DNA from: Owenia fusiformis
Lineage: Eukaryota; Annelida; Polychaeta; Sabellida; Oweniidae
Assembly (NCBI GenBank): GCA_903813345.2
Contig: CAIIXF020000003.1
Location: 20,600,931-20,664,930 of the forward strand
DNA length: 64,000 nucleotides
Reading direction: 5' to 3'
The translations under genes were made by a program, and so were the position numbers. The notes under the pieces are model-generated. The model did no database searches. It saw only the letters and a program-made list of their open reading frames with translations, and was not told the DNA's origin. Shown here piece by piece: positions 8,101 through 61,870 of this stretch (positions are counted from its first letter, which is position 1; every line of letters begins with the position of its first letter).

Positions 8101-9164
8101 ATAAAACTAATTATAAAACTAAAGTAATACGAATATAACATCATATTGCTTAGTGTGGTACATAGTATTTAATAATTAAACGCAGTTTTCAGTTTATGTT
8201 GAGACATATAATGATAACATATGAATTGAATAATAAAATAATCATGATCAAAAGTGGCAAATGTTGACGTACTATGACATTCCTCAGTGCAACCCTCAAC
8301 ATCCTTGGCGTTGTTACACGCTCCATTCTTACTATCCCATACTAGAGGGTACATGCATGTTTGCTTGTAGCCAATATATTGGCCTGGACCAAATCTGAGG
8401 AAATGGATAAAAGAAGTGTATTATCTTTAGTTTCACATTAGTTACTTTTTTCAAACAAAACTGATTCAATAAAATAAGCAATTGTATATCTTAATATAAT
8501 ATACTGCATTCTTATTCATTCTTAAAACTATATGCATATTTAACTGCTCTGTTGACTTTTAAGTTATTCTGTTTTACTTTTTATGAAAATTTCTTATAAT
8601 TTATTCACATGCATTTAAATTTTTCAAGAGCTGTTTGAAGAAAATGAAATACTGTTAAAATATACAATTGATAATACCTGCTCTGTGTTAACTGACAGAC
8701 AATAAACTGACAGCAGTCCCCATCATTATCTGCGAAATATCCTCCATTTAGGCCTTCGCATTTCTCACTACAGAATTCTAAGTGAAACGAGAAAAAAAAA
8801 TTACGTCATGTACAGTTTATGCCTTGTAACGATGACTTGTAAGTCAAAACATAGCCATGCCATTAATATTGTAACAATAATGAAACTATTCCTCATTAAA
8901 CTATAGATCATACATCTTATCATGCCCTCTGTTTATTCAAACTTATCCCTTTGACCATTTCAAATGGTGAGATGGCGTCTAATAAGTCAAATTGGTATTC
9001 CTCAAATACTGTGTATTGTGCCACTTATGTATTAACGGTCAAGAATTATAGTATGCAACACAATTCAAGGTTTCTTATTATAATGCATGAACATATTGTT
9101 ACATAAAGTAGAGTAAAAAACATATATTTACCTGACAAATCGGCCTCTATGGCATCAAGTTTAG
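5120..9164 (-). CDS. gene A: chitin-binding/laminin-G matrix protein (Pif-like), N-terminus not found
   Basis: Exons in transcript order: 9132-9164, 8678-8777, 8273-8394, 7916-7966, 7581-7727, 6835-7223, 6525-6642, 6307-6407, 5120-5236 (stop TAA). All have AG/GT borders, phases agree throughout, and the sum is 391 codons plus stop. Exons 2-3 encode a peritrophin-type chitin-binding module (FCSEKCEG, DCCQFIVCQ, TCMYPLVWD, GCTEECH). Exon 4 is a Thr/Pro linker. Exon 5 is a second Cys-rich module (DPQCFFVDD, VFDLEECGCVG). Exons 6-8 are a laminin-G/concanavalin-like module (CDCILCLPF, DDYIRISNFIKLYYGP, SNGCCDEEGSI, VTLRYCGPTLDVFYDGE). Exon 9 gives FSVCRDCWTDEQ and an acidic tail. The architecture recalls Pif/BMSP shell-matrix proteins but without a visible VWA domain. 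The role (extracellular, chitin-associated matrix) is inferred. The first coding exon and signal peptide are missing from this model. Confidence 0.82.
5736..5913. repeat. inverted repeat with CACGTG core, intron 8 of gene A
   Basis: ATTGGCCCCCACGTGAT at 5736-5752 is repeated in reverse complement at 5897-5913, with the self-complementary CCCCACGTGG in between and TGACGTTA words outside each arm. It is probably the core of a MITE. The wider flanks also show weak inverted similarity. Confidence 0.6.
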
Positions 9165-13832: not shown

Positions 13833-16800
13833 TTAATTTCCTCCTTCAAGTTCAAGCTCATCTAATCGTTCACATATAATAGAAGCTTCATCATAAGCAG
13901 AGAGTGCCATAATCTGTTCCTCAGTCCAACAGTCACGACATACTGAAAACTAAAATGGACACGCCCGGTAATCGGAGAAAATGAACGGAGGGGGAGAGTA
14001 GCTGATTTTCGCTAGAAAAGTCAACAAATCTTTTAAAGATTTATTTTTTCAAGAGAAAGTTTACGATTCAATGGCGCACGATATGTGGCAATATTTTAGA
14101 TCTTCTTTTAAATAGATACTCTTAAAAGACCTCGCATATTTCCCCGTGTCGTGCGCTTATTCATTTAGGAATTCAATCCAGATTTGTTGAATTTTCTAGC
14201 GAAAATCAGCTACTCCCCGATTCATTATTCCAATCAGCGGGCGTTATGAATACGAAATAATTATAAGCTCATGATATCTTTCTCACCTTTCGTGCACTTC
14301 AATACCAATAGGCTACAAAGCAAACTGTTCATGATAGCTAATGGTACGTTCACACCAACGGCGCTTTGATGGCGCTTTAAAGCGGCTTGTAAAGCGGCAC
14401 CAAAGCGTAACAAAGCTTAATTAAAGCGTCGGGGTCGTAATAGGTCGTAGAAAAGCTCGGGAGTAAAGCGGGATATTCGGCAAGAGCGCTAAAAAATTTA
14501 AACTGTTTAAGCGTTCGCACCAACGGCGCTTTGATGGCGCTTTAAAGCGGATTGTAAAGCGGCACCAAAGCGTAACAAAGCTTGATTAAAGCGTCGGGAT
14601 CGTAATAGGTCGTAGAAAAGTTCGGAGTAAAGCGGGATATTCGGCAAGAGCGTCAAAAAATGTTAAACTGTTTAAAAATTTTGGGCGCTCTGTTACGAAT
14701 TGATTGAAGCGCCGAGAGCGTATCAAAGCTTAACAAACCGTAACAAAGCTCAACAAAGCTTGACTCAAAGCGTAGGAAAGCTTAACACAGCTTGGTTCAA
14801 AGCGGGGACCCCAGTCTATTCACGGTCTGTTACCACTTGACACGCTTCGTTAAGATGTCTCAAGATTTGCTACGATCTGGCATGAAGATCTGACACGAGG
14901 TCAGACGCTTTCATCAATATCTGACACTCTTTGTTACACTTTCCTGAGGGACTCTCAAGCTTTCCAACGAATTGAGACGCTTTAATCAAGGATTGAAACG
15001 CTTTGCTAGGCTTTGTTACGCTTGAAAGTTTTCACACGCTATATCACGCCGTGCGACAAACGTCATGTCTTCTTCAGATAGGTCATGCTCTGGTCCATCT
15101 GGAATTTCTGGATCTCGTTGTTCTGCCATCGTGTTCTCGAGTCAAAGATGCAATGGTTTTATGGATCTACTGCATCTTTATATAGTCATTGGATCAAAAG
15201 CGGCATGGAATCGGCGATCTCGACATTTTCCAATGCGTGACAGAGCTTAACAGAGCGTAACAATGCACAACAGAGTTTTGCAATCGTATCAGAGCCTGAT
15301 TTAAAGCGTCATAATCGCATCAAAGCGTAATAATGCTTATCAAAGCTTTTCAAAGCGTGATTTCAAGCGTAACAAAGCCTGATCAAAGCGGGATCAAAGC
15401 GTGAGGAACCTTTTAGAGCTATGTTAAGCTTTCCTACGCTTTGGATCAAGTTTTTCTGAGCTTTGTTACGGTTTGTTAAGCTTTGATACGCTCTCGGCGC
15501 TTAATCGATTCGTAACAGAGCGCCCAAAATTTTTTAAGAGTTTAAAATTTTTTGGCGCTCTTGCCGAATATCCCGTTTTACTCTGAGCTTTTCTACGACC
15601 TATTACGACCCCGACGCTTTAATCAAACTTTGTTACGCTTTGGTGCCGCTTTACAAGCCGCTTTAAAGCGCCATCAAAGCGCCGTTGGTATGAAGAAAAA
15701 TGACAAAAATGACGGCGCTTTGCTCGCCGATTTAAAGCGTGGCATTCGCCGTTGGTGTGAACGTACCTTTAGTTGGAGATGTCGTAATCTACGATGTGTA
15801 GGGTGTTAAAAAACGCAACCCAAAGAAATCACTATATCTTGGAAAATACTGATCCAATTGTGTTCATTTTTTTCAGAAAGGAAGGAAGAGACTGTGTATG
15901 TATGAATAGTTTTTGTTGTTAGTTAGTTGTACAACATGATGTCTTGGACATCTGCTCAAAAGACATTATTATTAGAAAAATACGAAAACGCGAATGGAAA
16001 ATCGCTATATCTTGGAAAATACTAATTCAATTATGTTATCTTTTTCAGGAAAAGAAAGAAAATACTGTTGTTATTGTTAGTAAGTTGTAAAACATGATGC
16101 CTTGGACACCTGCTCAAAAGACAGTTGTACAAGGAAAATACGAAAAACGCAGTCAGAGGTGACTAACCATCTGCAGGAGATATACATACACAGTCTCTTC
16201 TTTCTTTCCTGGAAAAATGAACATAATTGAACAGTATTTTTCAAATTTATAGCGATTTCTTTGGGTAGCGTTTTTTAACACCCTGTACATTCTTGTGAAT
16301 AATTAATACACGAAAGAATCTTACATTGACAAGACATCCTTTGAAATATGTGTCTTCATCATCTCCATCACGTCCAAGGATGAGGGGACAATCGGATGTC
16401 ACTGCATCACCTAGAATTACCACCTTCAGATATAATGATTCACTATGATTCAATGTAATTTCATTGATACAGAAAGGACCATGATAATGCACCCTGTTTG
16501 TTCTTGTTATACGTGAATGATTGCTCTTCATTCCTGTACAATGTTTTCTAAATGTCAAAATAAAGTGTTTTTTTTTAGTTTTTATGGTTCATTTATTGAA
16601 AATAAAGTCGCAATCAATTATTGAACGCACTAAAGTGTTACTGTGCAACCGCCAAAAACAGTCAGAGTCGTTTAATTATAAAGATTTATCAATCATAGTT
16701 ACTGTATATTAAATATATGTGAACAACACTAGGCTATGGAGGAAGCTTAATACATGCATGGTACCAAATAGCAGTAGATGTGACATTTTATAGACATACA

Positions 16801-19800: not shown

Positions 19801-21344
19801 CTGCTACACTAGATTGGAGTGTGGTATGCTTTGATATATAAATACATAGTCCATATTTAGTGACTCATAAGGGATACACATTACTTGAGGTTATTACACA
19901 ACCTTTCATTAGCAAACTTCTCAACTAATTCTTTCAATTTGAAGATACGATCCATAAATATCACGTGATAAACTGCTACCTATAGTATGAAATTGAGAAA
20001 TGCTTACTATGACAGTCCTCAGTACATCCCTCAACATTCTTAGCATCATTACATGCCCCAATTTCGTCGTCCCATACAAGTGGGTACATACATGTTTGAT
20101 TGTAGCCAATGTATTGACCAGGTCCAAATCTTAGTAATAAATGAGACATTTGAAATTAAATAGCCAATGCAATGTATCAACTATTATCTTTTTTCCAAAC
20201 CACACGATTTAAACTAATCGGTGCAACTATACGAAAAATGACTGAGAAAGGAAGAGTCAAGAAATTGTGTACTATCATCTGAGAAGTACTTGTCACCAGT
20301 TGCCAGTTCCATTTAAACATGAACTAGTGTATCGATTGGGGCATGTCCACTAATAAATGTAAACAAAACCTCTAGAGATGACAGAGCATCAAGGGGGAAA
20401 GGGGGTCGTTAGTAGTCATTATGACACACACTATCTTTAGTCAGGCCCGTAGCCAGGATTTGCCAAGGGGAGGGGGGTTAAGTTTTCAAAAATTTCCAGG
20501 GGGGGTTCACATTTGACAATTTTGGCCCAAATATGGCTAAAATCACTTGAGAAGTGCTCGAAATGGTGAAAAACTGCATGATTTTGAACGATTTTTTGGC
20601 CAGGGGGAGTGGGGGGGGGGGGTTCGCCCGAACCCTGCGAACCCCCTGGCTACGAGCCTGTTAGTCAACAACAAGGATAGTCATTTGCATTTCTCTCCCA
20701 CTCACCTACTTTGTGTTAGCTGACAAACTATAAATCTGCAACAGTCTCCCTCAAATGCAAAGTACCCTCCATTTAATCCATTACATTTAGTTTCACAGAA
20801 TTCTAGAAAAACATATTATAACGTGTTAGTAAGCATAGTGCAAAACCTATATAAAAATATCACATATTAAATATTAAACATGCCATTAGATGTAAAGTCT
20901 GCGCGATTACTTCGACTTGGACTAGAATTATCATAAACATATTGTTCTTATTTGTGATTGGCCGATGCGGACAAAATTTGAAAAATTATGATATCCATTT
21001 TGACACAGCACTCTGCATGGAAGAATAATCATTGCTATCGTAATACTTGATCGATATTATGACTTGACTGGAACAAAATCAGGCCTAGGACAATTGTTAA
21101 TTGTGTGTTATGTCCGAGTCACATTTGCTCAGATTTATCAGCCAACGCGCTCAGTCGATTAAGTATTTTGTCCAAATGTGCGAATGTGACTCAGGCATAA
21201 ATAGCGACGTTCCTTGTGTAAGAAGAATTACATGAACGTCAATTACAACACACATAAGGGCGCACAAAGAACGTCGCTCCTTTTTAAGTAAAAACAAATG
21301 TGTATTACCCGATAGTTCCGTTGCGTTTACAGCATCAAGTATTG
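13833..21344 (-). CDS. gene B: chitin-binding/laminin-G matrix protein (Pif-like), tandem paralogue of A
   Basis: Exons in transcript order: 21309-21344, 20706-20802, 20008-20129, 19496-19549, 19028-19174, 17324-17712, 16804-16921, 16325-16410, 13833-13949 (stop TAA). Total is 387 codons plus stop from a phase-1 start. Exons 3, 5, 6, 7 and 9 have exactly the lengths of their gene A counterparts, and the rest differ by multiples of three. Modules are the same: chitin-binding 1 (FCETKCNG, DCCRFIVCQ, TCMYPLVWDD, GCTEDCH), Thr/Pro linker, Cys-rich module 2 (DPQCFFVDENF, VFDLEECACVG), laminin-G (CDCILCLPF, SNGCCDEQGSIEVKV, VTIRYCGPTLDIFYDGE) and terminal FSVCRDCWTEEQ. The laminin-G exon is about four-fifths identical to gene A by eye. 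Intron 8 has swollen to 2.4 kb through three inverted-repeat elements. The signal-peptide exon was not found. Confidence 0.82.
13961..14244. mobile_element. MITE abutting the last exon of gene B
   Basis: ACGCCCGGTAATCGG at the left end is matched by CCAATCAGCGGGCGT at the right. The arms run about 75 bases and share GTAGCTGATTTTCGCTAG perfectly. It lies in intron 8 of gene B with one end about 11 bases from the acceptor of exon 9. There is no coding capacity. Confidence 0.75.
14338..15772. mobile_element. large foldback element with AAAGCG-rich arms
   Basis: Both ends read GGTACGTTCACACCAACGGC (14343 inward; reverse complement finishing at 15767), preceded by CTAA on each arm. Both arms, several hundred bases long, are dense in AAAGCG/CGCTTT words. 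The left arm contains a head-to-tail duplication of a roughly 167-base unit (about 14347-14513 and 14514-14680). The middle (about 14900-15240) has no transposase I can read. An unambiguous target-site duplication was not found. Open frames inside are products of the repeats. It sits in intron 8 of gene B. Confidence 0.85.
15799..16287. mobile_element. inverted-repeat MITE (GGGTGTTAAAAAACGC termini)
   Basis: GGGTGTTAAAAAACGC at the left is matched by GCGTTTTTTAACACCC at the right, both beside TA. The arms extend about 100 bases (AAAGAAATC, ATCTTGGAAAATACTG and TTTTCAGAAAGG blocks). A second diverged copy of the arm segment lies near 16000-16060. The element ends about 38 bases from exon 8 of gene B. 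Confidence 0.75.
17874..17978 (-). pseudogene. decayed copy of a laminin-G exon of the A/B family
   Basis: The plus strand shares CGTAGTAAAGTTTGAT, CGAAGCAAC and ATCATTTGGTCCCCT with the corresponding part of exon 6 of gene B (about 17500-17610), in the same order and orientation but with indels and substitutions. The frame is broken and splice sites are lacking. It lies in intron 5 of gene B, close to the live exon 6, so it looks like a partial tandem duplication that decayed. Confidence 0.75.
20442..20660. mobile_element. inverted-repeat element with AGGCYCGTAGCCAGG ends
   Basis: CAGGCCCGTAGCCAGGATT at the left is matched in reverse complement by CCTGGCTACGAGCCTG at the right. The interior is G-rich (runs of G near 20465-20510 and 20600-20620). 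It is non-coding, in intron 2 of gene B. Confidence 0.7.
21103..21295. repeat. nested short inverted repeats
   Basis: GTCCGAGTCACATTTG near 21112 pairs with AATGTGACTCAGGC near 21184, and AGCGACGTTCCTTGTG near 21203 pairs with CACAAAGAACGTCGCT near 21265. They lie in intron 1 of gene B and look like degenerate MITE ends. Confidence 0.45.
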
Positions 21345-22494
21345 CTGAAATAAATGCATAAAGTTATATAGTTTTATTTTATTTCACAAAATCATCAATT
21401 TTATTACTTGTTGGCTAGGCTCAAAAAGCATTATTTATTAGCCAAAGAAGTAACACAGTGTTTTGACGTTTACTATTTCTTTCAAGATCATTTATATATA
21501 TATTTATACAAATAGTATTTTCAGAATTCCAAATCTTTTAAATGTATATAACACATACGCAACATGCACCGTGAGCAACAATCATAATATTTAAATATAC
21601 AGATTTTTATCTTAACTCAGCTTTGTAGTTAAATACCATATGCGCATTAGATTTATGTCGAAAACACTGCTTCACACAGCATAAGGTACAGCAAATCATA
21701 TCAGTGTTCGAGCCTAGAAATGAATAACGTACTAATCAAAAGAGTATCCGGAAAAAGATTCATAATATCTTATCATGAAATATTTATTTATTTTTTTAGT
21801 TTTTTAGTTTTTTAAATAGTGAAGTTATTGAAGAATGTTCATTGAATTGTGGTCATTGATTGAATGGTGGTCATTGATTCCCTAGCAGCCAGTTAGTTCA
21901 AAGAGACATGTAGACAACTGCTATTCACTTTCTTTTTTTTGAGAGAAAACTTTAATATATTTTCCTTTGCTTCAATAAAGTATACATATTTGTGGGATTC
22001 CCGTCACTCTTCTGAATAAAAGTACATTTAATGACCTTTAAAGTATATAAATCAAGGTCAATTTCAAGTACAATGTAATTTATTTCATTGCAGACTATTA
22101 GGTAAATGCGATCAATTACCTCTGGCTGCTAAGAAATATCAAAAGTGATTTAACAATGTTAAAGCAGATCAGTTATACTACATCAGTCTATTTTAAACTA
22201 TACATTGAGTTGGACAATTAATGGATTTACTGATGTTAGATTTACTTACTTAAGGTAAGTTCATTAAATTATCTTAAAGAAAGCGCACTTATATCTTGAA
22301 AATGCTATCAAAAGAGGATGTTATTCGACTGACACTGAATTTAGGAAAACTTTGATTAAATATCTCAAAATGAATTGATTGGTAAGTATTTACATCTACA
22401 AGTCGACATTTATATGGAATATAATGAACATTGAAATTTGATCTTCGAGATCGTTTGATCTTCGAGGTCCAAAAACGATTTTACATACACACAG
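21345..22494. other. shared upstream region of gene B and the cysteine-rich gene, no exon found
   Basis: I searched both strands for an ATG followed by a hydrophobic stretch and a phase-1 donor, which both neighbouring genes need, and found none that is convincing. A donor-like GTAAGT near 22254 follows a short ATG frame that is interrupted by TAA. Confidence 0.35.
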
Positions 22495-25400
22495 GCAACA
22501 ATGTCACCGTCCGTAGAAATGGCCAAATCAACGATAAACCTGGTACATGTGTTGACGACACTGAATATGACCAGGATAGGGGTAAGTGAGTTACAAAGAG
22601 AACATTGCTATTGCTAGCATTCTGATAAGACTATAATGCTTGTTTTGAATAACATGATTATGTATTCCCCTTTGCTGTATTGAGCTTATATGTTTACCCT
22701 AAGACGAGATTTCATTACTAAATACTTCGGCATTTTGGTCAGCATTAGCTCCAAGAGAATACATGTTCGTTATATAAATTATATATATATATTAATATGT
22801 ATCTCGGAAGATATTTCTTATTTTGTTAATTTATTGTTTGTCGATTAATTTAAGTAAAATGTTGTTTTTTTTGGATTATCTTATTCAAGTGCACAATTAC
22901 CTAGTTACCTTGTTTGAACATTGATTAACGGGAATCGCTCTCCCTCCCTCAACCAATTTCAGACGATTCTAATCTGAAATATGAAATAATATTTTCTGAT
23001 CATGACTGCGTGTGTGTCTTTTTAGACCCATTCATTATCTTCACGAAAAGTATAAATAGGGATAATTAAGTTACTCAGACAGGGGTAACAGGACAACTCA
23101 TCCCTAAGACAACTCATCCCAAGACAACTCATCCCCAAGACATCTCATCCCAAGACAACTCATCCCAAGATATCTCATCCCAAGACAACTCATCCCAAGA
23201 CATCTCATCCCAAGACAACTCATCCCCAAGACAACTTTTCCCAACTTGAAATATAACATAATTTTATACAATAAATTTTCACTTTTGAAAGAATGAAAAA
23301 TATTTAGAGACTTTAGCAGTTAGCACACTGGTCATGGAATATCATTGTTTTGTTTTTCATTATATACATTTTTCATGCTGTATTTTAAACTGACACATTT
23401 CATATTTTGTCATGCTGTATTTACTTAATATTTTTGTATTTTGTAGTTAGTGTAGCTTAGTTTTAGTTAATTTCTGTTGACTGATTGGGATAAAATAAAC
23501 ATGTTCAAATTAATATTTACTTTGATTATTAAATCAAAGATCATCAAAGGTGTAGGATTAACTCAGTTGGAAAGTATTATCCAATATATAAGCGCAAATG
23601 CCAAAGGGAAGGATGACTAAAAACTTTAAAGAAACGCAACAAGAATAGCAAAGTGTAAATCTGTCATAAGAAAAGTAGACCCTATATATCCCAAAAACCA
23701 TGATCTTACGTGAAAAGAAACAAATGTCTAACATCCTCCTCCCCCCTCCAATCGAGAGCCAATATTACAATCCAGGACCAGAACACCAAGGGACATTTCA
23801 TTCATACTGAAGTCATTACAATACACGTTGAAGAAAAATTGAAAAAATTGATAGCCAATACTCATAACATCAAAAATAGTTGTAGATACTATCTAGTACT
23901 CATAAAAGAGTATTCAGTCTCAAATGATATGGGATAGATAAAATCGAGTCTCGAAGTCCATACAATTCAAACTGTCATCATCCGTTCGCAAAGCCGTCAT
24001 CCCTAAGAAAACTCTCTCAGATTAATTCAGTCTTTGTTTTAAATATTTTGGCTTAATCCTAAATAGGATTGCCAATTTCAAACTTTCAGATTTATGATGA
24101 TTAAATTTGGAAATAATGTCTATGACTTTTATGTTCAATTCTATATTCTCAAATATATTTAGAATAACCCAGAATTAATCAACATAGCGGCAGTACTTAC
24201 AAGTAAAACATAACTGCCATTTCAAAATCCTAAAAATCAGTATTAAAAATTGAGTGTGTAATTAAAAATCACTCTGTAATCATAAAAATGAAAAAGGGAT
24301 ATATATAGTATAAAGGACAAAATAATTTATCAATTATACAAGTGGGATGAGTTGACTTGGGATGAGATGTCTTGGGATGAGTTGTCTTGGGATGAGATGT
24401 CTTGGGATGAGTTGTCTTAGGGATGACTTGTCTTGGGATGAGTTGTCTAGAAACCAATCAGACTAAGTGATATTAAAGGGACAACGGACCAATCGACACA
24501 CTTTTTCAAAAATGATGATCTAATTTTCACTAAAAATGCAACCTTTTATTTTATTATAATGTTAAATGCATAATTAGAATGTGCTTTTTGAGATACGTCC
24601 TATCTCCCAAAAGGAAAAGTGGATTCCTCCAGGGACTTAAACATGAAATGAGCTGAAACCAACGGATAGTATATATCATTGAGTTTTTTTCAATGGGCAA
24701 GTAACACAGGGAACAATAATCTTAGAGGAATTCAGTTTCCCTAACTAATTGATACATCAAAATAAATAGCAATGCATTAAACACTGTAAAAAAATGATTA
24801 CATTTTTGGTGAAAATGAGGTCAACATCTTTGAAAAAGTGTGTTGATGGGTTGATTGCTAGTTAAATATCTCCGAGTCCGATTGACTCTATTATTATTGT
24901 ATATTATTTTCTTTGAGATAATGAATGGATCTTAAAGATATACCTGTCTTCATGGTCAGAAAATAGTTATAATCCAAGATATATAACCGTCTGCGATAAC
25001 TTATGTGAACCTTTCTATGATTGATCTTTCTTTCAAATGGCTTGGAAATCAAAAACTTTAAATGAACATTTGATCACTGAGTACATCATTTCATACATTT
25101 ATATGAGTCTGGGTGCCATGTGCTCCTACTCTTTTTAAACAGGATAAATATCAAATTATTTTTTATTCCAAAGTATTCATAATACAAAACATTCGGAAAC
25201 TACTGTTGTGACGTATATTGGTTTATGAAATGTAATTTAAAAAGATATGACGAGAGATCAAATTAAAATGCAAGAATAAAAATAAAACCAACGCATTGTG
25301 AGAAGTCAAAGAAAACCGTTGGTAAATACTATGCCAGTTAATGTTGTCATTATTGATCTGCATCACTAGTCTTTACTCGTTCACTGCAGCTTGTCATAAA

Positions 25401-27754
25401 ATAAAGAAAACTTTTGGGAGATGGTCGCAAATATATAGTATATCATTAACATGTTGGAGATAATGCCCGGATTTGATACATTATATATGTTAGGTTGTCC
25501 GAATTCATATTTGAAACAAACTTTGATTTTTGTCCTTATTAAGCTATTTGAAAGAACAAATGAGCAATATTTCCAATATATACATCATTGGTTATGATTA
25601 CCCGCTGTGTTGGCAACAAAATGAACTCGTTTAATGTCGTTGATATCAACACAAAAATGACCCTACTACACCATTTCAAAACTTTTCCGATCTTATATTG
25701 ACTGGCCAGCCATTGTAATTCTCGTCCAAGTGATCCCCATCCCGTACAAGAATGAGAACACATTTTGACGTCAAAACATCGCCTAAAATTATGAAATATC
25801 AAAGGTTATCTGGTGTAGTAGATGCATGCAATATCCGTGAGTATACAAGGTTAGATAAGTTCCGGGACAAAGCCCCTTAAATTATGACTTTTCTTTTTGA
25901 AATGTTCAAGGGCACATTGTCTACATGGTGAATTTACTTGAATATCCACTTATTGAGAGAAAATTACGGATACTATTGTGACACGTTTTTTAGGTAGAAG
26001 GAGCAATATTTCAAATAAATCCTAAAGTTGTTTTTATTGTCCAAAGGGGTATTTGGTTTTAGACTTTGATGATATTTTAGATTAAAATGTAAAGTTTGGT
26101 TACGTTATTTTCACTGTGTATATTATTCAGAAGATACTGGTATGCTATGTGTATGCAAAGATCTATGTATATTGTTGTACTAATCTAGTAACTTCGTAAC
26201 CATTGCTTATGCATTTTAGTTAAATAAGAACGTGTTGAATACCTGTTTGAAATCATTTACTATGACAGTCTTCAGTCCCTCCATCAATATCGTTGCACGC
26301 CTATTTCACTTTATCCCATACAAGCAGAAAATCTGGAAAATGATCGAAATACTTATAATCAAACGTCAAAATATACCCGGATCAAATTAATAATCGAGCC
26401 GCTGTTATATATGATTAAAATCTAACCATGAACGTTAAATTAATTACTATACTAGTAACAAATCCTTGCTTTGAGACAGGAAACAAGTGTGTTATGATCT
26501 GACAACATTTTTCTACCGCAAAATATCCAACATTTGATCCATTGATCTTTATGTGCAAAAAAATCTGAAATTATAATAGATTAATTACAGTTTCTTTTGT
26601 CTGCAGATTAAGATAACCAACTTTTGTAAGATTCAAAGAAAACCTAAAATAACTACTATCAACTTAACGTAAAATATAATATTTCTGTCAATATATGTTA
26701 CCCATGGACATGTTTCATATTGAGCCAATGCCCATTTATGTTTATTGGGATACTTAACACAAAAAACTTGCTGATTGATGTACACATTGAAATTACCTAC
26801 CATACGTCCGTAATTTTACGACACTTGCAGTGAGACCCAAAGATCTATGTAGTCATTATCAATATTTCGTAATCCCTATTCTGCATGGCCGTTCTTACCT
26901 CCTGAAAAAAAACATATCAAATTGGATTCACCACACAACATATAAAGTTCATTAGCTTCATGCTCAGTTTTCTCGTTGGGCAGAATAATTGAATAGTACA
27001 TATGTTATTATAAGGTTCATTTGGTTATTTTGTGAATACAAATTCTGATTTATTCACTTCTTTGCCCAAAGCAAATGGAGATTGAACTACATAAAAAGTA
27101 TTCCAAAATACTCAGGGATTTACTGAGGTTTATTTTTGTCAGCAATGGGTGCCAAATTCTCCCATATTGTGATCGAACAGACAAAGTATATAGGTTGTGC
27201 TGGCACCGAATACATTTGAACTTACACCACTCTTAGTTGAGAGAGAGAAAATAAGAGTAAAATATTTTATAAAATAAGTAAAAATGAGGTGAACTGTCTT
27301 CAAACTATGAACAAGCATACCAGCATATGAGCGTTATAGAAAGATATTGTGGATTTATTATCATCCATTCAGGGTGTTACAAAATGACATGTTTTCAATA
27401 TAACGTTTTACAAGGGTCAAGCTGACAAAGTATCAATTTCAATTGGTCACTTTGACAATCATTCAACAAATGACCTTGGAAAGATTGTTGCAATGCGTAT
27501 TCGGGTTGGCAAGAATCGGTGACACCTGTTATGATGTGTTCTATTATACAGTTTATATTGCGTCAGTTGAGTTTATTATTGAATATTTTAAATATAATCG
27601 CCATTAAGTTGATTTGTCTACCTTTATTTCAGAAACCAAGTGTTGGTGTAAAATTAACGATGGTATTCCCCGGGAGATGTGCACATGGATAGCAGTTAAC
27701 ATTTCGTCAGACCAAAGAAACGTTATATTACTTGAATGTAGTAGAATTTGTTGA
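22495..27754 (+). CDS. candidate secreted cysteine-rich peptide, two exons seen
   Basis: Exon 22495-22581 lies between ...ACACAG and GTAAGTGAG. Exon 27633-27754 follows a good acceptor (TTTATTTCAG) and ends in TGA. Both borders are phase 1, so they join in frame as (G)NNVTVRRNGQIND, then KPGTCVDDTEYDQDR, then ETKCWCKINDGIPREMCTW, then NISSDQRNVILLECSRIC and stop. The roughly 68 residues contain six cysteines (TC, KCWC, MC, EC, IC) and two Asn-x-Ser/Thr sites, with strongly coding-like composition in an AT-rich surround. CxC followed by G and CT recalls VWC or pacifastin-like mini-domains, but the match is partial and I do not assign a family. The upstream exon with start codon and signal peptide was not found. 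The 5-kb intron contains a foldback element and relic exons of the A/B family. Confidence 0.5.
23084..24456. mobile_element. foldback element with tandem-subrepeat arms, copy 1
   Basis: The left arm (23084 to about 23245) is GGTAACAGG followed by tandem ACAACTCATCCCAAG units. The right arm (about 24345-24456) is the reverse complement, ending TTGTCTAGAAACCA. TCAGAC occurs immediately outside both ends (23075-23080 and 24458-24463), consistent with an 8-9 bp target duplication. The interior is AT-rich, non-coding as far as I can read, and shares long blocks with copy 2 at 39088-40048. An extra segment of about 450 bases (about 23560-24010) has no counterpart there. Confidence 0.85.
24484..24860. 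repeat. inverted-repeat MITE
   Basis: The left arm (CGACACACTTTTTCAAA near 24494) is matched by TTTGAAAAAGTGTGTTG near 24830. The arms extend inward about 60 bases (TTTTCACTAAAAATG on the left against its near reverse complement on the right). There is no coding capacity. Confidence 0.7.
24861..26254. other. no gene recognised
   Basis: Intronic sequence of the candidate cysteine-rich gene, if that gene is real. An 87-codon minus-strand open frame near 25539-25802 has no recognisable domain. Confidence 0.35.
26255..26568 (-). pseudogene. remnant of a further chitin-binding/laminin-G gene (exons 2 and 3)
   Basis: The plus strand at 26255-26324 matches the 3' part of exon 3 of gene B (TTTACTATGACAGTC, then CCCTCCATCAATATC, then ATCCCATACAAG) including the old donor-site region. 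The plus strand at about 26476-26568 weakly matches exon 2 (GCAAAATATCCAACATTTGA against GCAAAGTACCCTCCATTTAA). Order and orientation are those of genes A and B, but both frames are broken and the remaining exons were not found. This is inferred to be a dead tandem copy upstream of gene B. Confidence 0.65.
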
Positions 27755-27907
27755 CCAAATATACAAAATATACCATCTCATATTTTTAGAAGCATTTATT
27801 TATTCTTCTGTTTATTTATGTTACATGGTCAGAGGATTTAAACCTTTGGCGATACTATTAACAAAATAGTACCATGGCTACTGGACTCATATGGTGTTGT
27901 GTGATAA

Positions 27908-27976
27908 CTGGTCAACTGGTACCCAAGACAAGTCGTACCCAAGATAACTGGTACCCAAGACAACTCGTACCTAAGT
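27908..27976. repeat. short minisatellite (TGGTACCCAAGACAACTCG)
   Basis: About four units of roughly 19 bases (GTACCCAAGACAAGTC, GTACCCAAGATAACTG and so on). The CCCAAGACAA core is shared with the arms of the foldback copies at 23084 and 39088, so this may be a relative or a single surviving arm. Confidence 0.65.
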
Positions 27977-29434: not shown

Positions 29435-31030
29435 TGCAAACAGCAAATCAATTAAAGGTATTCATCGAGTAGTTTTTTGAAAACACTTTTTGTATCAAAT
29501 TCGTGAAAAGAACGCATTTCGCGAATACTTGGCGACTTCTCACCTTTAAAGATTCATAAACATAGTCGATATTGGCTAGATTTTCATGTTGTTAAGCATA
29601 ATAGAAGGAACATTTAATATGATAAATGATTATCTACCAAACAGAGCAATACTCATGACTTTGCATTTTTTAGAATATTAGAAACAAGGCTACTATCAAT
29701 ATTTCATTGGATTTTATTGGAATCAAGTTCCAACTATCACGATTTTGCCCGTCTACCCCAAATCACGTTGATTTTTACGTCAAAAAGCGTCATATATCTG
29801 TGGTTCAAGCTAAACAAGCTCAAGCAAATAATGGGGACACAAAAAATCTTGCAAAAACTACCACTGTTGAAAAATTCGAGGGGGTCAATCACACGCAGAC
29901 ATTAGGTTTAACTCATCCTTTACATGTACATCGCACTCCATTTCCTATTCTTAATCAAAAAACAAAGGGCAGCATTTAGAAATTACAACCATTGAAATAG
30001 CCTGTTGATCCTACACACAGTATACATACTAGTCAATAAAGAGATAGCAACGATACTCCTTATATATCCGATGAACGTGGTTAAAGGAAGGGCCATCGTT
30101 TTAATATATGAATATATAATCGTTAATTTGAATTCGAATCGAAGAAAGAGCAAACAGTCCGAATACAAGAAAAAACAATAGCAAAATACAAATAACGTGA
30201 AACGCCCATTTAATTGAAGCATTATCATGACAACGTACCACGTGTTCACATTTTACAAGATGGCTACCAGATTTGTAAATTATCACGCTGGTGATTCTCA
30301 AATGATTTGAACCACATGATTAATCCAAGAATGGATTTTAATTAATTATAAGAGCAAATAAATGTTGTTTATAGTTAACATATCATTTTACTTACCTTAT
30401 GGCAGCCCTGCACATACTTTTAACTGCGTTTTTCTTTCAGTCAAGTTTACGAATATATTCCATACCATACTATGTGATAGTTTCAATACTCCATTTTTGA
30501 ATAATTAGCATTATAGGCTTGAATTAATCCTCATGAAACAATATGTGAAATGTTAATTAACATAAAAGTTAAATTTGGCCGTTATCCTAGCTTAAAAGTC
30601 CGCCATTACGGTCCTCTGAAAATGCGTTAGGCTTTTGTTGAACGGACATTGATGGATAGGCTAATGACTAAAACGCTTTGAGGTGTACTTTTGACAAATG
30701 ACTTATATATCAATGACTTTTACCATCAATATATCATAATGCAATGTTCCTGGATATTATCACTAAAATGTGTACGTGTCTAATTAGGATATTCATAAAA
30801 TGTGTCTAAAACGGAATGGCTTCACTCGACATTTCTTGTACTGGCAACCTTTTAATCAAGAAGAACGTTTATTTGCCAAACATAAATTATTGTATCTGTA
30901 ACAATAATGCGAAAGGGCATTACTAAAAAGTAATTTGTTACAAGTAATGGTCACCATTTGACTTCTTACCGTAACTATTTCCTTTTCTACTCGCGATCTC
31001 GTTCACGTGAGAGTCTCGCTTAAAAACAAA
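29435..31030. other. 5' flank of the kinase-like gene, no gene recognised
   Basis: Several short open frames occur on both strands, none with a recognisable domain or supporting splice sites. The promoter of the kinase-like gene presumably lies at its right end, but I see no unambiguous element. Confidence 0.35.
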
Positions 31031-32029
31031 ATGGCGGCTATACAACCATTGAAAATAAATGGTAATAAATGCGTTTTCTTTCTGTTAGTTGTTCTCTATC
31101 ATTATAGATTAATGGATTTACAAGGGGAACGAAGTGTTATTGACAATCACGACACAGAAGCAATCGTTAACAGACGTGCAACAATTACATTGCCTCCAGA
31201 CAAGAGTAGTTTTGCATTTGATTGCAACAATATCGGAGAAATTGAACTCGTTAAGCCTATGGGTAAAGGGGTTACCAAAGAGACGTATTTAGGGAAGTAC
31301 AAAGGAGAGGAGTACGCTGTGCAGTTTGTGACTAAGGATGTGATTAGCGTTAAAGATTGCGTAGGGAATCTCAAGTCATGGGAGGTAGCGGCAGGCCATG
31401 CTAGAACATGTACTGCACTTCCCCTTATGAAAATAATGAAAGGCATTTTGATAGCAATGCAACTGAATCACCCAAATTTAATCCGACTTGTCGGGTTTTG
31501 TGCTAAAGGAGAGACTGTGGAAAGTGAGGACTCAGATAATTTATCAACAAAGTCGGGTGTTGTAGCAGTATACGAATACGCAGAAAAATTAACAATTCAA
31601 AATATCGAACTCTTAGACTGGGAACAGCGACTTGCCATTGCGATAGATATGAGTGACATGCTACAGTATTTAGAGGAGTCTCGATTAGGTTCCATTCTAG
31701 CATTAGAGTTTGGTGAAAAGCACGTTCTTATGGGTAAGGATAATAGAATACGACTGATAGATTTTGATGACTTTGATGGAGCTGAAAGATCGTGTGATCG
31801 TCCAAAGCATAAATTGTTCAAGTGCAACTGTGAGAACGGTGTTTGTAAAGGGCATAATGCAAAGTCTAATATGTTTAGATTCCAAAGATCATTTGCAGAT
31901 GCCCTGCTTGACGAGCCAGTCCTCGACAGTAGTAGAAAGGAGAAGATATTAAAAAAGACAAGAAGACTTCTTAGAAAATATAATATAACAGCTACTGTAT
32001 TAAAACAAAGACTCACAGCACTACTTTAG
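31031..32029 (+). CDS. PKDCC/VLK-type extracellular kinase-like protein, intronless, probable pseudokinase
   Basis: A 332-codon uninterrupted frame. I start at the ATG at 31031 (AAAATGGCG, good context); the frame is open a little further upstream but without another ATG. Residues 14-23 (CVFFLLVVLY) are a short hydrophobic signal or anchor. The kinase fold follows: Gly-loop GKGVTKETYLG near 78-88, YAVQFV near 95-100, HPNLIRLVGFC near 147-157, GVVAVYEY, LLDWEQRLAIAIDM, GSILALEFGEKHVL near 220-233, LIDFDD near 242-247, and CKGHNAKSN near 272-280, which is characteristic of PKDCC (VLK), a secreted tyrosine kinase. Compared with the family by eye, the ATP-binding Lys is Gln-98, the helix-C Glu is Gly and the catalytic Asp is Glu-226, while the metal-binding Asp-244 is kept. 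Lack of introns suggests a retrocopy or a lineage-specific single-exon form. Location: secretory pathway or extracellular (inferred). Confidence 0.85.
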   Translation: MAAIQPLKINGNKCVFFLLVVLYHYRLMDLQGERSVIDNHDTEAIVNRRATITLPPDKSSFAFDCNNIGEIELVKPMGKGVTKETYLGKYKGEEYAVQFVTKDVISVKDCVGNLKSWEVAAGHARTCTALPLMKIMKGILIAMQLNHPNLIRLVGFCAKGETVESEDSDNLSTKSGVVAVYEYAEKLTIQNIELLDWEQRLAIAIDMSDMLQYLEESRLGSILALEFGEKHVLMGKDNRIRLIDFDDFDGAERSCDRPKHKLFKCNCENGVCKGHNAKSNMFRFQRSFADALLDEPVLDSSRKEKILKKTRRLLRKYNITATVLKQRLTALL

Positions 32030-39087: not shown

Positions 39088-40048
39088 GGTAACAGGACAA
39101 CTCATCCCTAAGACAACTCATCCCAAGACAAGTCATCCCCAAGACATCTCATCCCAAGACAACTCATCCCAAGACATCTCATCCCAAGACAACTCATCCC
39201 AAGACATCCCATCCCAAGACATCTCATCCCAAGACAACTCATCCCCAAGACAACTCTTCCCAACTTGAAATATAACATAATTTTATACAATTAATTTCAA
39301 TTTTTGAAAGATTATTTGAAACATATTTAGAGATTTTAGCAGTAAGCACACTCTGTTTGGCCATGGAATATCGTTTGTATTTTAGTTAGTTTAGTCTAGT
39401 TTTAGTTAATTTTTTGTTGATTGATTGGGATAAAGATAAACATGTTCAAATTAATATATACTTTCATTATTAAATCAAAGATAATCAAGGCTGTCAGATT
39501 AGGATTAACCTAATAAGAATGTATTATCCGAGGTATTATCAGAATAAAGCTCCCAGATTAAGTCAGTCATCTTTGTTTTAAAATATTTTGCTTAATTCCA
39601 ATATGTCATATTTGGCTTATTCTTAAATAAGATTTCCAATTTTAAACTTTCAGAATCATGATGAATGAATATGGAAATTATGTCTTTGATTTTTATTTTC
39701 TATTCTATATTCTCAAATATATTGAGAATTTGAGAATAACCCAGAATTAATAAAAAATACCGGGACGTGAAAGTAGAACATAACTTTCAAGTGCCATTTC
39801 AAAATGCTAAAACTTATCAATATTTAGATTGAGTGTATAATCAAACATCACTTTGTAATCGTAAAAATGAAAAAGGGATTTTAAATTTTATCAATAATAC
39901 TAGTGGGATGAGTTGTCTTGGGATGAGATGTCTTGGGATGAGTTGTCTTGGGATGAGATGTCTTGGGATGAGTTGTCTTAGGGATGACTTGTCTTGGGAT
40001 GACTTGTCTTAGGGATGACTTGTCTTGGGATGCGTTGTCTAGAAACCA
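39088..40048. mobile_element. foldback element with tandem-subrepeat arms, copy 2
   Basis: The left arm is GGTAACAGG plus tandem ACAACTCATCCCAAG units to about 39262. The right arm, about 39900-40048, is their reverse complement ending in TCTAGAAACCA. GTAAAAA flanks both ends (39081-39087 and 40049-40055), a probable target-site duplication. The interior matches copy 1 (23084-24456) in blocks such as AACTTGAAATATAACATAAT and TTTAGCAGTAAGCACAC. It lies between the divergent genes C and D. Confidence 0.88.
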
Positions 40049-51530: not shown

Positions 51531-51702
51531 CTCATGACGATTCATAAAACTACACAACATCACTTAATTTATCTAAATAAAAGTACAAACTTCTTGTACC
51601 AATTATAATGAAATTAATTGTTTTAACGGTGAGTTGTTTTTTCTCCATTATTGGCTTAAATGTCCAAATATCAAGGACCAGACAAGATAGGAATCTCCTT
51701 AA

Positions 51703-52171
51703 GGTATGAGTACCGTAATCCAACACCAAATTCGAAAATTCATAACAATACTTTGCACATATGGCGTTCGTGACCAACTATAAAACGCTTACCCCCAATA
51801 GTGTTATATATCAAAATGTACCTGTTCATATAGGGGTTCGATTGATCTACATCATATTATAGGGAGTCAGGTTACTTTTTGAGATATCAGCGTCCATTTA
51901 TTGTAACTCGCGTTTGCCACCACTTCCTCAATTCTGATATGACGAGCAAACGCGTAGTAGACATGCTCACGTCGGAACTATTTTTGACATACATCGCTAT
52001 TTTCGTAATTCAAATGAAAGTTGAACTCCTCCTCTTCATTTTGATACCAAATAGTGGCATACTAGGTACCCTAGAAGCCAACTATGGCGTTATTTAGAAC
52101 AATACCACAGGTTTTTAAATGGACTATATAGGGGTCATACCTTTTGGCGGATGGATATGGAACCTCATACC
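51703..52171. mobile_element. 469-bp TTAA-flanked MITE, copy 1
   Basis: It starts GGTATGAG and ends CTCATACC, flanked by TTAA at 51699-51702 and 52172-52175. TTAA duplication is typical of piggyBac-type transposition. It carries no transposase. Confidence 0.85.
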
Positions 52172-52175
52172 TTAA

Positions 52176-52958
52176 TGTCTTATGACATCACACTGATTTT
52201 TGTCTCTGCAACTTTTTTTGGCGGAAAATATCATTTTTAGTTCAAAAATGCATAAAAACGTCGAAATTGGCTGAATATGTGAAAAATTTATCCATTTAGG
52301 CTAGAAAGGGTTAATTTGCCCTACCCCAAATACGTCTAAATATGCTAGTCTAACTTTGCCACTGTGACGTCACAAATCTAACCTGACTATCTCCGAGTTT
52401 ATTGAAGAAAATGATACGTCTGACAAACAGCTTTCATTCCCTATATGGCACACCTTCTACTAAGAGTTGCATCATTGACTAAATCTAAGACAAAGACCCT
52501 GTGTCCCGAGGATTTTGACTGAAATTTGGCCATTTTCGCCCAAATCTAACTAAATTGCAATTTCCCTCACACTTGTATTTTGAAATAAATATTGCTACAA
52601 TGTAGCAATTTAAAAATCATACATGCTTACTGTTTCTGTCGACCTGACACGTGTATCTAGCCTGTAAAAATGAAAAATTGCTACATTGTAGCAATTTTAC
52701 TGAGATATGGGCCCTGCAAATCATGCAATTTTAGCAAAAAATGAAGAAATAACCTGCAATTTTGACGGAATTTCAGAGGGCTTTCTTTCATTCGTGACCC
52801 TCCACGGGCCTCTTATGACCATTCTTATACTCACAGAATGGTTGAAAGTGATTTCAAATCATTGTTTGCCCTAAGCAGAACGAAAAAATCGATTCTATCC
52901 TCAAATTCTGCTGGAATATTGGTCTCTGGCCAACTAGCAGACAATTTTAGGCCTCATA
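52176..52958. other. spacer between the two MITE copies
   Basis: No gene is seen. ATTGCTACAATGTAGCAAT-like short palindromes occur near 52590-52610 and 52675-52695. Confidence 0.4.
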
Positions 52959-52962
52959 TTAA

Positions 52963-53431
52963 GGTATGAGTACCGTAATCCAACACCAAATTCGAAAATT
53001 CATAACAATACTTTGCACATATGGCGTTCGTGACCAACTATAAAACGCTTACCCCCAATAGTGTTATATATCAAAATGTACCTGTTCATATAGGGGTTCG
53101 ATTGATCTACATCATATTATAGGGAGTCAGGTTACTTTTTGAGATATCAGCGTCCATTTATTGTAACTCGCGTTTGCCACCACTTCCTCAATTCTGATAT
53201 GACGAGCAAACGCGTAGTAGACATGCTCACGTCGGAACTATTTTTGACATACATCGCTATTTTCGTAATTCAAATGAAAGTTGAACTCCTCCTCTTCATT
53301 TTGATACCAAATAGTGGCATACTAGGTACCCTAGAAGCCAACTATGGCGTTATTTAGAACAATACCACAGGTTTTTAAATGGACTATATAGGGGTCATAC
53401 CTTTTGGCGGATGGATATGGAACCTCATACC
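52963..53431. mobile_element. 469-bp TTAA-flanked MITE, copy 2
   Basis: It appears base-for-base identical to copy 1, same length, again flanked by TTAA (52959-52962 and 53432-53435), 1260 bases downstream in the same orientation. Such identity implies a very recent event, either transposition, local duplication or an assembly artefact. Confidence 0.85.
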
Positions 53432-53532
53432 TTAATTCTATATATTCACCCCGTTCTTGCTTACCTTGTCTAATATTCACCCCGGTAATACTTTCTGCCC
53501 TCATCACTACTGCTGGATCGCGACGTATTGGC

Positions 53533-53994
53533 CAAAATGCCCTAATACGTCACTTCCACAGAAAAAAGTAGTATTCAAAAATAAATGTAGTCCCAACACA
53601 ATTGTGATCATGACGAGTCAGTAAGCTAGAATGTAGGCACAGTTGTACAGTAATCTCTTTGCAATGACAACATGCCATTTCTTCTGAAAATGCGTTTATT
53701 TGGGTTATCTGAAGGAAAATTTCGAGTCAAGTGGCGTATTAATTTTGCCTTCATTTTTGTGAATTTCAATTTGTGTCTGCAGAGAGAGGGGGTAGTGTCA
53801 CAATTGACCAATTATTTCAAAAAGTAGATGTTTGGCCCCTATTGAGTTTAGTGTCAAGCTGTAGCTTAGACATAGCTTTAGAACCTCAGATAGGCCAGTG
53901 AGGCCACATAAATCCATAACTCGAGATAAAAAGTCAGGCGTTTGCCCTTTTGCCCATTGACTAGTATGGTGACGTGAATTAGGGCAGTTTTGCC
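53533..53994. mobile_element. MITE with GCCCTAATNCGTCAC ends, copy 1
   Basis: The left end is GCCAAAATGCCCTAATACGT and the right end, in reverse complement, is GGCAAAACTGCCCTAATTCA, so the unit has imperfect terminal inverted repeats. It is repeated directly at 54683-55138 with a few substitutions and two short deletions. Confidence 0.7.
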
Positions 53995-54682
53995 TATTAG
54001 TCACATGTGAAAGTGACCAAAATTTTTTAAAACTACTCAGAATCGCCCAGAATTGAAGTTTATTAGTGTGAAACATATTTTGGACTAAGGCAAAAAGGGG
54101 AATTTTCATGAAAAAATTTAACGTTTTTGCTGAATCAGCAGTTTTCGCTTTTTACCCCAAAAACCACTGATTTTGACGATATTTGGCTACAATTTTGTCC
54201 TTAGTGACCCCTAAATGTCATTTGTTGTCGTAAATGGGGAAGCCAACGAGTTGCTATTCATAATAAAGATTGCATTTTCCATCTTATGGTTTCCAGTATA
54301 GAAAGAAGGTACATATCGGGGGTGCAGTCAGAAATTGGTGAGTTAAGTGTCAATTTTTGATGTATTTGTTCACTCTGAATGACTACATTCGAGCTAAAAA
54401 ATATCTCAAAAGTCCCAATTCTCTAGGCCAGAGTCAAAACTGATCATACTGAAAAATGTCACCATCAGGCAGTGGATTTCATGATGTAAATGAAAAACTA
54501 GTCAAATTTAAAGGAAACCCATTGGGTTCTTGAAAAAATGACCCCAGGGGTAATGAAGTAGCCATATTTTTCATAATTGCTGTCAGAATACTCTTAAACT
54601 GCACAAAACTACTTGTAAAACTCTAGTAAATTCGAAAAACTCAATTTAAAGCCAGAAATCATCCAACCATGTGGCTATTAGG
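53995..54682. other. spacer between second MITE pair
   Basis: No gene is seen. As the flanking copies are direct repeats, an LTR-like arrangement was considered, but there is no primer-binding site, polypurine tract or coding capacity. Confidence 0.4.
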
Positions 54683-55138
54683 CCAAAATGCCCTAATACG
54701 TCACTTCCGCTGAATTAGAAAAAAGTAGTATACAAAAATAAATGTAGTCCTAACACAATTGTGATCATGACGAGTCAGTAAGCTAGTATGTAGGCACAGT
54801 TGTAATCTTTTTGCAATGACAACATGCCATTTCTTCTGAAAATGCGTTTATTTGGGTTATCTGAAGGAAAATTTCGAGTTAAGTGGCGTATTAATTTTGC
54901 CTTCATTTTTGTGAATTTCAATTTGTGTCTGCAGAGAGAGGGGGTAGTGTCACAATTGACCAATTATTTCAAAAAGTAGATGTTTGGCCCCTATTGAGTT
55001 TAGTGTCAAGATGTAGCTTAGACATAGCTTTAGAACCTCAGATAGGCCAGTGAGGCCACATAAATCCATAACTCGAGATAAAAAGTCAGGCGTTTGCCCT
55101 TTTGACTAGTATGGTGACGTGAATTAGGGCAGTTTTGC
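54683..55138. mobile_element. MITE with GCCCTAATNCGTCAC ends, copy 2
   Basis: A second copy of the element at 53533-53994 in the same orientation, over 95% identical by eye outside the short deletions. Confidence 0.7.
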
Positions 55139-56895
55139 CATTGCTGAGCTATCGTGTCTCTGTAACAAGATGGCCTGCCTTCCGGTAGCAGATTTTGTAA
55201 GATATTCTATTTTCTCAATTTCAAATTATTGCTTGGACGATTTTCCTCCAAAATTGCATGCCCGGAGTTGCATGATCTGTACTTTCAAGAAAGTGTAATT
55301 TAGTATTCATTCAAATTGTCAAGAAGTGAAATATTTAAACTTTTAGTTCCTCGCTTTCGAACGCATGATGTTCCCTTCAGATTTAAACATTTTAAAATAG
55401 ATTTAGACGTGTTCTCTCTGTATTCAGACTTAGACGTACAGGATCCTGGTCCAAGATCCCAAAATCTGTAATATTTGATACGGACCAACATAGTCTATGT
55501 TTAATTTAAGTTTAATTTTCTGGAGTAACTTCATTCATCCCACTGACAAACATAGTTACATAATACATAACATACACAACCCAAGAAATGGGGTTAAATG
55601 AAGAAATTAAACAAAACATCTCGAGCAAACCTGCTATCAGAAGGCAGACCAACTTGTTCCAGAGACACTGGCTTGGTAAAACGTTGGCAGCCAGTAACTA
55701 CGTAACCTATAACAAGAAACATCCGAGAGCGTTTTGTTAATGCACAAGTAGTAATTAAAATAAACGCAGAATCGAATCAAATAGGCTTTTAGTAATGGCA
55801 TTCACTAATAATTTTTAATACTTTTAGGTATTTCAAAAACGTTATTCCACCTTAATAAAACTTTCAAATGGCAAGGGTCAGTGATTGAAAAATATATTTC
55901 TAAAGCGATTTAAATTTCACATATTCGTTAGTAAGTCGCATACGTTTTTGGCGCATTGCAAAATTAATTTCCGTAATGATTTTCGTGATGAAATTGAATA
56001 TATTAAATATTATTGAGATTTCATTATATGGAAAGATGTACGTTTTAACTAAATGTGATTTATAAGCCATCATTGTCTTCAAAATATTTCAATCTCGCAC
56101 AAACTTCATATTTCCATTTATTAATGACTTTGTAGTAGCCACGTGAGAGGTTCCTCGAATCTCTGTTAAAAGCTCTACCTTCAAATATTTTTAGAATCGT
56201 TCAAGATATGGTATCACTATTTTATTTATATTTATGTCTGGCTTTTTACTGGGATGCTAGCTGACAAATCCCTCTGTTAGCTAACCTCTTTAATTTAATG
56301 AGACAGACATAAGGCCTGGAAAGCAAATAAAACACAAATAGCCAGAGTCATATCGTAAATCATAAATAATATACTTAGAATATCTACACCCCATAAATAA
56401 GTTTGGCAATCGAACGCCCCATTCGGATAGCGTGTCAAACAATTTTTAATCATATTATGCATATTAATTTTGTTCCTAAATTGGTACAGTTCGGAAATAC
56501 GACCCTGATTACCCTAAAATCGGTTAACCTGAATAAGCTTTTTTCTCTGTGATACAAATAAGAATTTCTTGTTGCCAAAAACATGGGAGGGGGGCCGGTA
56601 CGTCGCACGGTGCTTCCGATGACACGATGTAGACCCAGATGTCGATTTTCTATATTGATTTTGTAAATCTTCGCTGCCGCCGTACGAGCAAATGTGTATG
56701 AGGCTTAAATGAATTAATTTATAGAAGAGACAATTGGAAGTAGTTGTCGTATACTTTTATTGGTGATAATGAATTATGATACTGTACGTACGATAATTGT
56801 TCCTGTACGTAAGATAATTGTTCCTCTCACTTGTCACTGAAGGTAAAAAAGCAATTCTCATAGATGATCGCATAATGATCACATGTTGTATACTA
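55139..56895. other. no gene recognised
   Basis: A dispersed repeat shared with about 45989-46036 lies at 55162-55206. Nothing else is recognised. Confidence 0.4.
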
Positions 56896-61394: not shown

Positions 61395-61870
61395 AAATTG
61401 ATGGCAAAGCAGATGAAAAAGTTGATAACAGAACAGATATACAAATTGGTGACAGAGCAGATGACAAAATTGATTACAAAGCAGATGTCAAAATTGGTGA
61501 CAGAGCAGATGACAAAATTGATTACAAAGCAGATGTCAAAACTGGTAACAGAGCAGATTACAAAATTGATTACAAAACAGATGCCGAAATTGGTGACAGA
61601 GCAGATTACAAAATTGATTATATAGCAGATGTCAAAATTGGTGACAGAGCAGATTACAAAATTGGTTACAAAACAGATGCCGAAATTGGTGACAGAGTAG
61701 ATGAAACAGTTGATTACAAATCAGATGCCAAAATTTGTGACAGAACAGATGACAAAGTTGTTTACAAAGCAGATGTCAAAATTGGTGACAGGGCAGATGA
61801 CAAAATTTATTATAAAGCAGATGTCATAATTGGTGACTGAGCAAATGACAAAATTGATGATTGAGCAGAC
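61395..61870. repeat. 48-bp minisatellite (GACAAAATTGATTACAAAGC)
   Basis: About ten alternating 24-base half-units (ACAAAATTGATTACAAAGCA and TCAAAATTGGTGACAGAGCA). One plus frame stays open for 75 codons as a 16-residue periodic peptide (KLVTEQMTKLITKQMS), which follows from the repeat length being a multiple of three. Confidence 0.9.

Follow-up and report, generated by a model that had tools for sequence, protein, structure and literature searches.

Does a 64-kb stretch of the Owenia fusiformis genome (contig CAIIXF020000003.1, positions 20,600,931 to 20,664,930; 64,000 nucleotides, here called the window) contain the 3' end of a gene for a small cysteine-rich secreted-type peptide, divided between two segments so short that searches for open reading frames (ORFs) would pass over them? 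Such a two-exon gene was proposed for positions 22495 to 27754 in an initial annotation. The two segments are interpreted here, with a probability of about 60%, as the 3'-terminal exons of an ordinary working gene encoding a small extracellular cysteine-rich protein. The features concerned, in window coordinates, are as follows.

22495 to 22581, + strand: candidate internal exon 1, entered and left in phase 1; open frame with the peptide NNVTVRRNGQINDKPGTCVDDTEYDQDR
22517 to 22581, + strand: alternative shorter exon 1, starting after a second AG and entered in phase 2
22582 to 27632, + strand: putative intron of 5051 bases, with a GTAAGT donor and the acceptor CTACCTTTATTTCAG
27633 to 27754, + strand: candidate terminal exon 2; open frame with the peptide (E)TKCWCKINDGIPREMCTWIAVNISSDQRNVILLECSRIC and the stop TGA

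The AG before exon 1 ends at 22494, GTAAGT follows directly after 22581, and TTTATTTCAG precedes exon 2. Exons 1 and 2 join in one frame as NNVTVRRNGQINDKPGTCVDDTEYDQDR-E-TKCWCKINDGIPREMCTWIAVNISSDQRNVILLECSRIC, a peptide of 68 residues with six cysteines followed by TGA, and neither exon frame contains a stop or a frameshift. The cysteines lie at residues 18, 32, 34, 45, 64, and 68, giving the pattern C-x13-C-W-C-x10-C-x18-C-x3-C. The coordinates, the joined frame, and the cysteine pattern proposed initially were thus confirmed letter for letter from the sequence, whereas the description of the peptide as acidic holds only as a slight excess (11 D+E versus 9 K+R). Two Asn-x-Ser/Thr motifs, N2-V-T and N51-I-S, are readable in the joined peptide and were counted for the proposed interpretation. 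On the + strand, the frame that contains exon 1 is uninterrupted between 22428 and 22586, and that of exon 2 between 27608 and its TGA; ahead of exon 1, the open frame lacks an ATG.

That the downstream splice pair is strong was observed directly. Scored with matrices of generic metazoan values, which were not trained on the source species, the exon 1 donor (6.68) ranks 7th among the 3512 GT sites on the + strand, and the exon 2 acceptor (5.35) ranks 15th among the 3205 AG sites on the same strand. A scan for other in-phase 3' partners of the exon 1 donor (acceptor score of ≥2, two or more cysteines, up to 42 kb) found four possible ones, at 22963, 24960, 25390, and 31089, with acceptors of 3.0 to 4.4 versus 5.4 for 27633; the partner at 31089 enters a long kinase-like frame that begins with an ATG of its own. 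No extra internal exon of phase 1-1 was found within the putative intron at an acceptor score of ≥-1 and a donor score of ≥2, and no donors were found inside exon 2 at the settings used, all scores there being below -2.

Codon use in exon 1 is equally a direct observation. A codon score was derived from 1268 codons in 24 pieces of neighboring genes, exon 1 not being among them. By this score, exon 1 reaches 0.31 per codon (training pieces, 0.19 to 0.64), which places it in the highest 2.2% of 22929 windows without stops. Its guanine-plus-cytosine (GC) content is 44%, a value reached by 9.7% of windows, and the remaining five frames of each segment have lower codon scores than the proposed frame. 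In the whole window, 28 candidate internal exons that do not overlap one another score ≥8, and exon 1, in the form that starts at 22517, ranks 17th among them. Fifteen of the 16 candidates ranked above it are sense exons of four neighboring genes with CBM_14 and LamG domains (genes A to D, listed below), and the remaining one runs antisense to the segment of gene D that encodes its proline-rich tail; these high ranks are partly circular, because training and ranking share those genes. Six of the 15 are also of phase 1-1, as shuffled extracellular modules usually are. Of the 24 known pieces, 15 are recovered by the ranking, and three of the nine misses are terminal segments, which are outside its design.

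Several results weigh against this interpretation, and they concern the first acceptor, exon 2, the ends of the gene, the search for relatives, and the chance expectation. The acceptor of exon 1 at 22495 is mediocre (-0.38, rank 325 of 3205 AG sites on the + strand), so that the "good splice signals" of the initial annotation apply to the donor and the second acceptor but not to the first. The exon at 22495 to 22581 does fit the claim that both segments are in phase 1, but this start is not unique, since the alternative acceptor at 22517, in phase 2, scores about equally (-0.79 versus -0.38). In the same test, six assumed acceptors of the neighboring LamG-type genes score from -4.96 to 4.28, a range that includes the exon 1 acceptor; a seventh position that was tried (-9.51) is an alternative for one of those six. 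The coding signal of exon 2 is weak, with a codon score that averages -0.01 per codon and lies in the top 14% of 12563 windows without stops, the first 17 codons summing to +2.4 and the remaining codons to -2.8, and its GC content of 37.6% is ordinary (31% of windows as high). Beyond the stop, no AATAAA lies within 750 bases; the nearest is at 28508, and variants occur at 27758, 27767, and 28023.

At the 5' end, neither a phase-1 signal-peptide exon nor an upstream internal exon of compatible phase was found at strict settings in the interval from 8 to 22.48 kb of the + strand. Over the same interval, a laxer signal-peptide scan gave one short, weak, and unconvincing match at 8808 to 8838, and a laxer scan for internal exons gave two of phase 1-1, both overlapping the antisense of known exons. 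For the 22517 acceptor, one phase-2 signal-peptide candidate was obtained (20009 to 20079), which is weak and antisense to an exon of gene B. A lax scan for internal exons from 14 to 22.48 kb returned five rows, of which four lie antisense to exons of gene B. The identical signal-peptide scan upstream of genes D, C, A, and B gave 1, 1, 4, and 4 candidates, respectively, and because these stay putative, its silence at the locus is limited evidence; the lack of an upstream exon is moderate evidence only, because the exon finder caught 15 of 24 known pieces. The LamG-like stretch MLSKEDVIRLTLNLGKL (22301 to 22354) was considered as an upstream exon and rejected, as an in-frame TGA precedes the next good donor and no convincing acceptor was seen ahead of it. 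What stands of the gene first proposed is thus a pair of real-looking exons for a cysteine-rich, extracellular-type protein, but with a weak coding signal in exon 2 and no convincing in-phase signal-peptide exon.

The searches for relatives were largely negative. No convincing second copy of the joined peptide was found in the window, where the best nonself match, at 18185 to 18141, lacks the cysteines and has an E value of 0.084 when exon 2 is the query and 0.27 when the joined peptide is; the suggestion of an undescribed mini-protein family is therefore not upheld from this single copy. The joined peptide has no significant match in Pfam, and VWC, pacifastin, and thyroglobulin type-1 are without a listed match up to an E value of 10, a test limited by the HMMER filters, which hide most weak Pfam matches. 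The sole Pfam model listed is Ephrin_CRD (PF25599; E value of 0.02), but at 15.4 bits it is below the cut-off of 27, and it covers residues 3 to 36 only. With the extended frame the E value is weaker, at 0.035, and three shorter sub-pieces give no match. No Pfam match was listed for any of 10 shuffles with fixed cysteines, which indicates that the Ephrin_CRD match is not due to cysteine spacing alone and does not thereby make it significant; it is probably a chance match. Sequence searches returned nothing from PDB and NCBIfam, and none of 10 pattern matches in viral contigs or 42 in prokaryote contigs was confirmed; these negatives mean little for a candidate animal gene, since none of the collections searched contains animal genomes. 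Scanning the window for Rfam families (at gathering thresholds) and for tRNAs found nothing. Among the titles listed in literature searches, none names a two-bridge pacifastin with this cysteine pattern, which is no evidence of its absence from print.

The first alternative is that the pair arose by chance, as two stretches that happen to be free of stops and to adjoin splice-like sites in AT-rich intergenic animal DNA and that were noticed for their cysteines. It was gauged with order-3 Markov versions of the window (both strands, 200 per setting), with thresholds that were set after the candidate had been seen. With loose thresholds, at least one joined peptide of ≤75 amino acids with ≥6 cysteines turned up in 13 of 200 Markov windows, and an earlier loose run that allowed up to 110 amino acids with ≥6 cysteines gave 12 of 60, which adds to the case for chance made by the mediocre first acceptor, the weak codon score of exon 2, and a 5' part that was not convincingly found. 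The counts fall to 4 of 200 at the observed scores and to 2 of 60 in the loose run when ≤75 amino acids and CxC are also required; the former, and separately the position of exon 1 in the top 2.2% by codon score, speak against chance. The loose search of the real window found 17 joined structures, 14 with ≥6 cysteines; two of the 14 are the candidate with its two acceptors, eight have a neighboring CBM_14-type exon first, two have such an exon second, and the remaining two use neither the candidate nor a recognized exon, which is a further point for chance. The candidate pair exceeds the typical chance expectation, yet scanning many windows would yield such cases by accident, and a chance origin of this one is regarded as unlikely, at odds that still deserve attention.

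A second alternative is that the segments are a remnant: a gene would have lost its 5' part, in a loss perhaps aided by an intronic mobile element, and only its 3' end, decayed or displaced, would be left. Such a history would fit the presence of exon-like signals when no convincing upstream exon was found, and also the following feature.

23084 to 24448, no strand assigned: mobile-element-like insert inside the putative intron, with inverted terminal arrays of a 15-base unit

The arrays consist of GACAACTCATCCCAA at 23092 to 23244 and of its complement at 24343 to 24448, and a further copy of the insert, also bounded by inverted GACAACTCATCCCAA arrays, lies at 39088 to 40040. Mobile elements are common in animal introns, so that the insert does not specifically favor a remnant, and the absence of any stop or frameshift from both frames and the intact downstream splice pair argue against decay, which leaves this explanation improbable. 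A short array related to the GACAACTCATCCCAA unit was also observed at 27913 to 27975.

If the exons belong to a working gene, the product may be compared with known cysteine-rich modules. A CxC after an acidic, Tyr-containing loop is a VWC motif, and the candidate has a CxC in the same setting. The part of the candidate seen has six cysteines, compared with the eight reported as conserved in SVWC (PMC13115929), and no VWC match was listed in Pfam. As in thyroglobulin type-1 domains, C-W-C in the candidate leads into a loop that contains Asp-Gly and is closed by a Cys; the candidate differs in reading CWCK rather than CWCV, the family signature (PMC7349879), in having one cysteine upstream of CWC, and in lacking a listed Pfam match.

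A resemblance to VWC or pacifastin repeats was pointed out initially. As given in PMC2689174, the pacifastin signature is Cys1-x9-12-Cys2-Asn-x-Cys3-x-Cys4-x2-3-Gly-x3-6-Cys5-Thr-x3-Cys6, the bridges are 1-4, 2-6, and 3-5, Cys5 and Cys6 flank the reactive site, and domains may be divided between two exons, as in Trichoplax tapp-1. In the candidate, the Cys1-Cys3 distance is x13 (x12 to x15 is allowed by this signature), Cys3-x-Cys4 is present as CWC, a Gly lies in the Cys4-Cys5 loop, and Cys5 is followed by Thr. In contrast, Cys2 and the following Asn are absent (Glu29-Thr30 stand there), Cys6 is replaced by Val50, the loop reads x4-Gly-x5-Cys-Thr, which places the Gly at least one residue later than the two or three of the signature, two additional cysteines are found at the C terminus, and no Pfam profile match is listed up to an E value of 10. 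A 2026 study requires a six-cysteine pacifastin core and reports 109 molluscan homologs, many of them divergent (PMC13388995), and by that definition, applied to the sequence as read, the candidate is not a pacifastin. The remark that the cysteines missing relative to pacifastin form a known disulfide pair proved accurate, as Cys2-Cys6 is a published bridge (PMC2689174). The absence of exactly one bridge pair is suggestive, with the reservation that it was found post hoc against a family chosen for its likeness.

The third alternative, an undescribed two-disulfide derivative of pacifastin or VWC, is a special case of the working-gene interpretation, with which its odds overlap, and it is highly improbable; it draws on the C-x13-CxC...CT register, the coincidence of the absent cysteines with the published Cys2-Cys6 bridge (PMC2689174), and the many divergent pacifastin-like domains of Mollusca (109 in PMC13388995) but faces the lack of a listed Pfam match to VWC, pacifastin, or thyroglobulin type-1 up to an E value of 10 (where HMMER filters hide most weak matches), the absent Asn after Cys2, the shifted Gly, a single sequence, and the weakness of a post hoc match of absent cysteines. 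Likewise highly improbable is a lineage-restricted family of small secreted proteins in lophotrochozoans whose core, similar to that of pacifastin or VWC, would have lost the Cys2-Cys6 bridge as a pair, gained a C-terminal cysteine pair, and so passed from an inhibitor scaffold to a binding or matrix module.

For the preferred interpretation, two 3'-terminal exons of a working gene, a mechanism can be proposed in which transcription and secretion of the peptide, its fold, its bridges, and its function are all predicted. After secretion, C18...C32-W-C34...C45 would fold into a short disulfide-braced hairpin resembling the core of pacifastin or VWC, with bridges C18-C34 and C32-C45, and C64-C68 would close the tail. 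Inhibitor function is not expected, because Cys6, which closes the reactive loop, is absent, and the product may instead be a structural or binding module. The locus appears to be of a lophotrochozoan, probably molluscan, type, also carrying the four CBM_14 and LamG genes of the Pif/BMSP type. If true, the gene would add one more short-exon secreted protein beside biomineralization-type genes and would be an example of genes missed by ORF-based annotation; interest would rise only if related species kept the two-bridge core with the same cysteine pair missing.

The four paralogous CBM_14 and LamG genes (Pif/BMSP type) recognized in the window are the following.

Pieces between 8780 and 5120, - strand: gene A, with Laminin_G_3 in the joined pieces
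20805 to 13833, - strand: gene B, assigned from its likeness to A and D
36666 to at least 34044, - strand: gene C, assigned from its likeness to A and D, 3' end untraced
41642 to the stop at 45504, + strand: gene D, with CBM_14 in the joined pieces and a proline-rich tail

The joined pieces of gene A match Laminin_G_3 at 27.9 bits (cut-off, 27.6), and those of gene D match CBM_14 at 26.2 bits (cut-off, 22.1); scanned exon by exon, the LamG pieces of all four genes gave no LamG match. Genes A and B share 83% DNA identity over the main LamG exon. The window was compared with itself by tblastx, excluding rows that touch large repeat arrays, and the matches are from part of the output. The combination of CBM_14 and LamG is described for the mollusc Pif/BMSP shell matrix family (PMC11291548), of which a VWA domain is also typical. 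The cysteine-rich peptide lies outside the neighboring genes as far as they were traced. The possibility that the peptide is the C-terminal part of a neighboring LamG gene was rejected, as the last recognized segments of genes A, B, and D run into a stop and no convincing match to the peptide was found elsewhere in the window. The peptide is thus probably not the tail of genes A, B, or D, to which presumably no further exon is spliced.

Other features were observed in the window. The long frame entered by the partner acceptor at 31089 (30962 to 32029, + strand) is open for 355 amino acids and has sub-threshold kinase matches (PIP49_C, E value of 0.011; PK_Tyr_Ser-Thr, E value of 0.067); we take it to resemble an extracellular or degenerate kinase. 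A direct duplication of 478 bases with 100% identity (51699 to 52176 and 52959 to 53436) is adjoined by a second duplicated block (53526 to 53994 and 54676 to 55139) with 94.5% identity, and the duplications at 51699 to 55139 are either recent or an assembly artifact. At 61394 to 61893, a 24/48-base tandem repeat is open throughout as a repetitive frame of 150 residues. A 165-base tandem repeat at 14347 to 15694, with inverted copies nearby, is possibly a foldback element.

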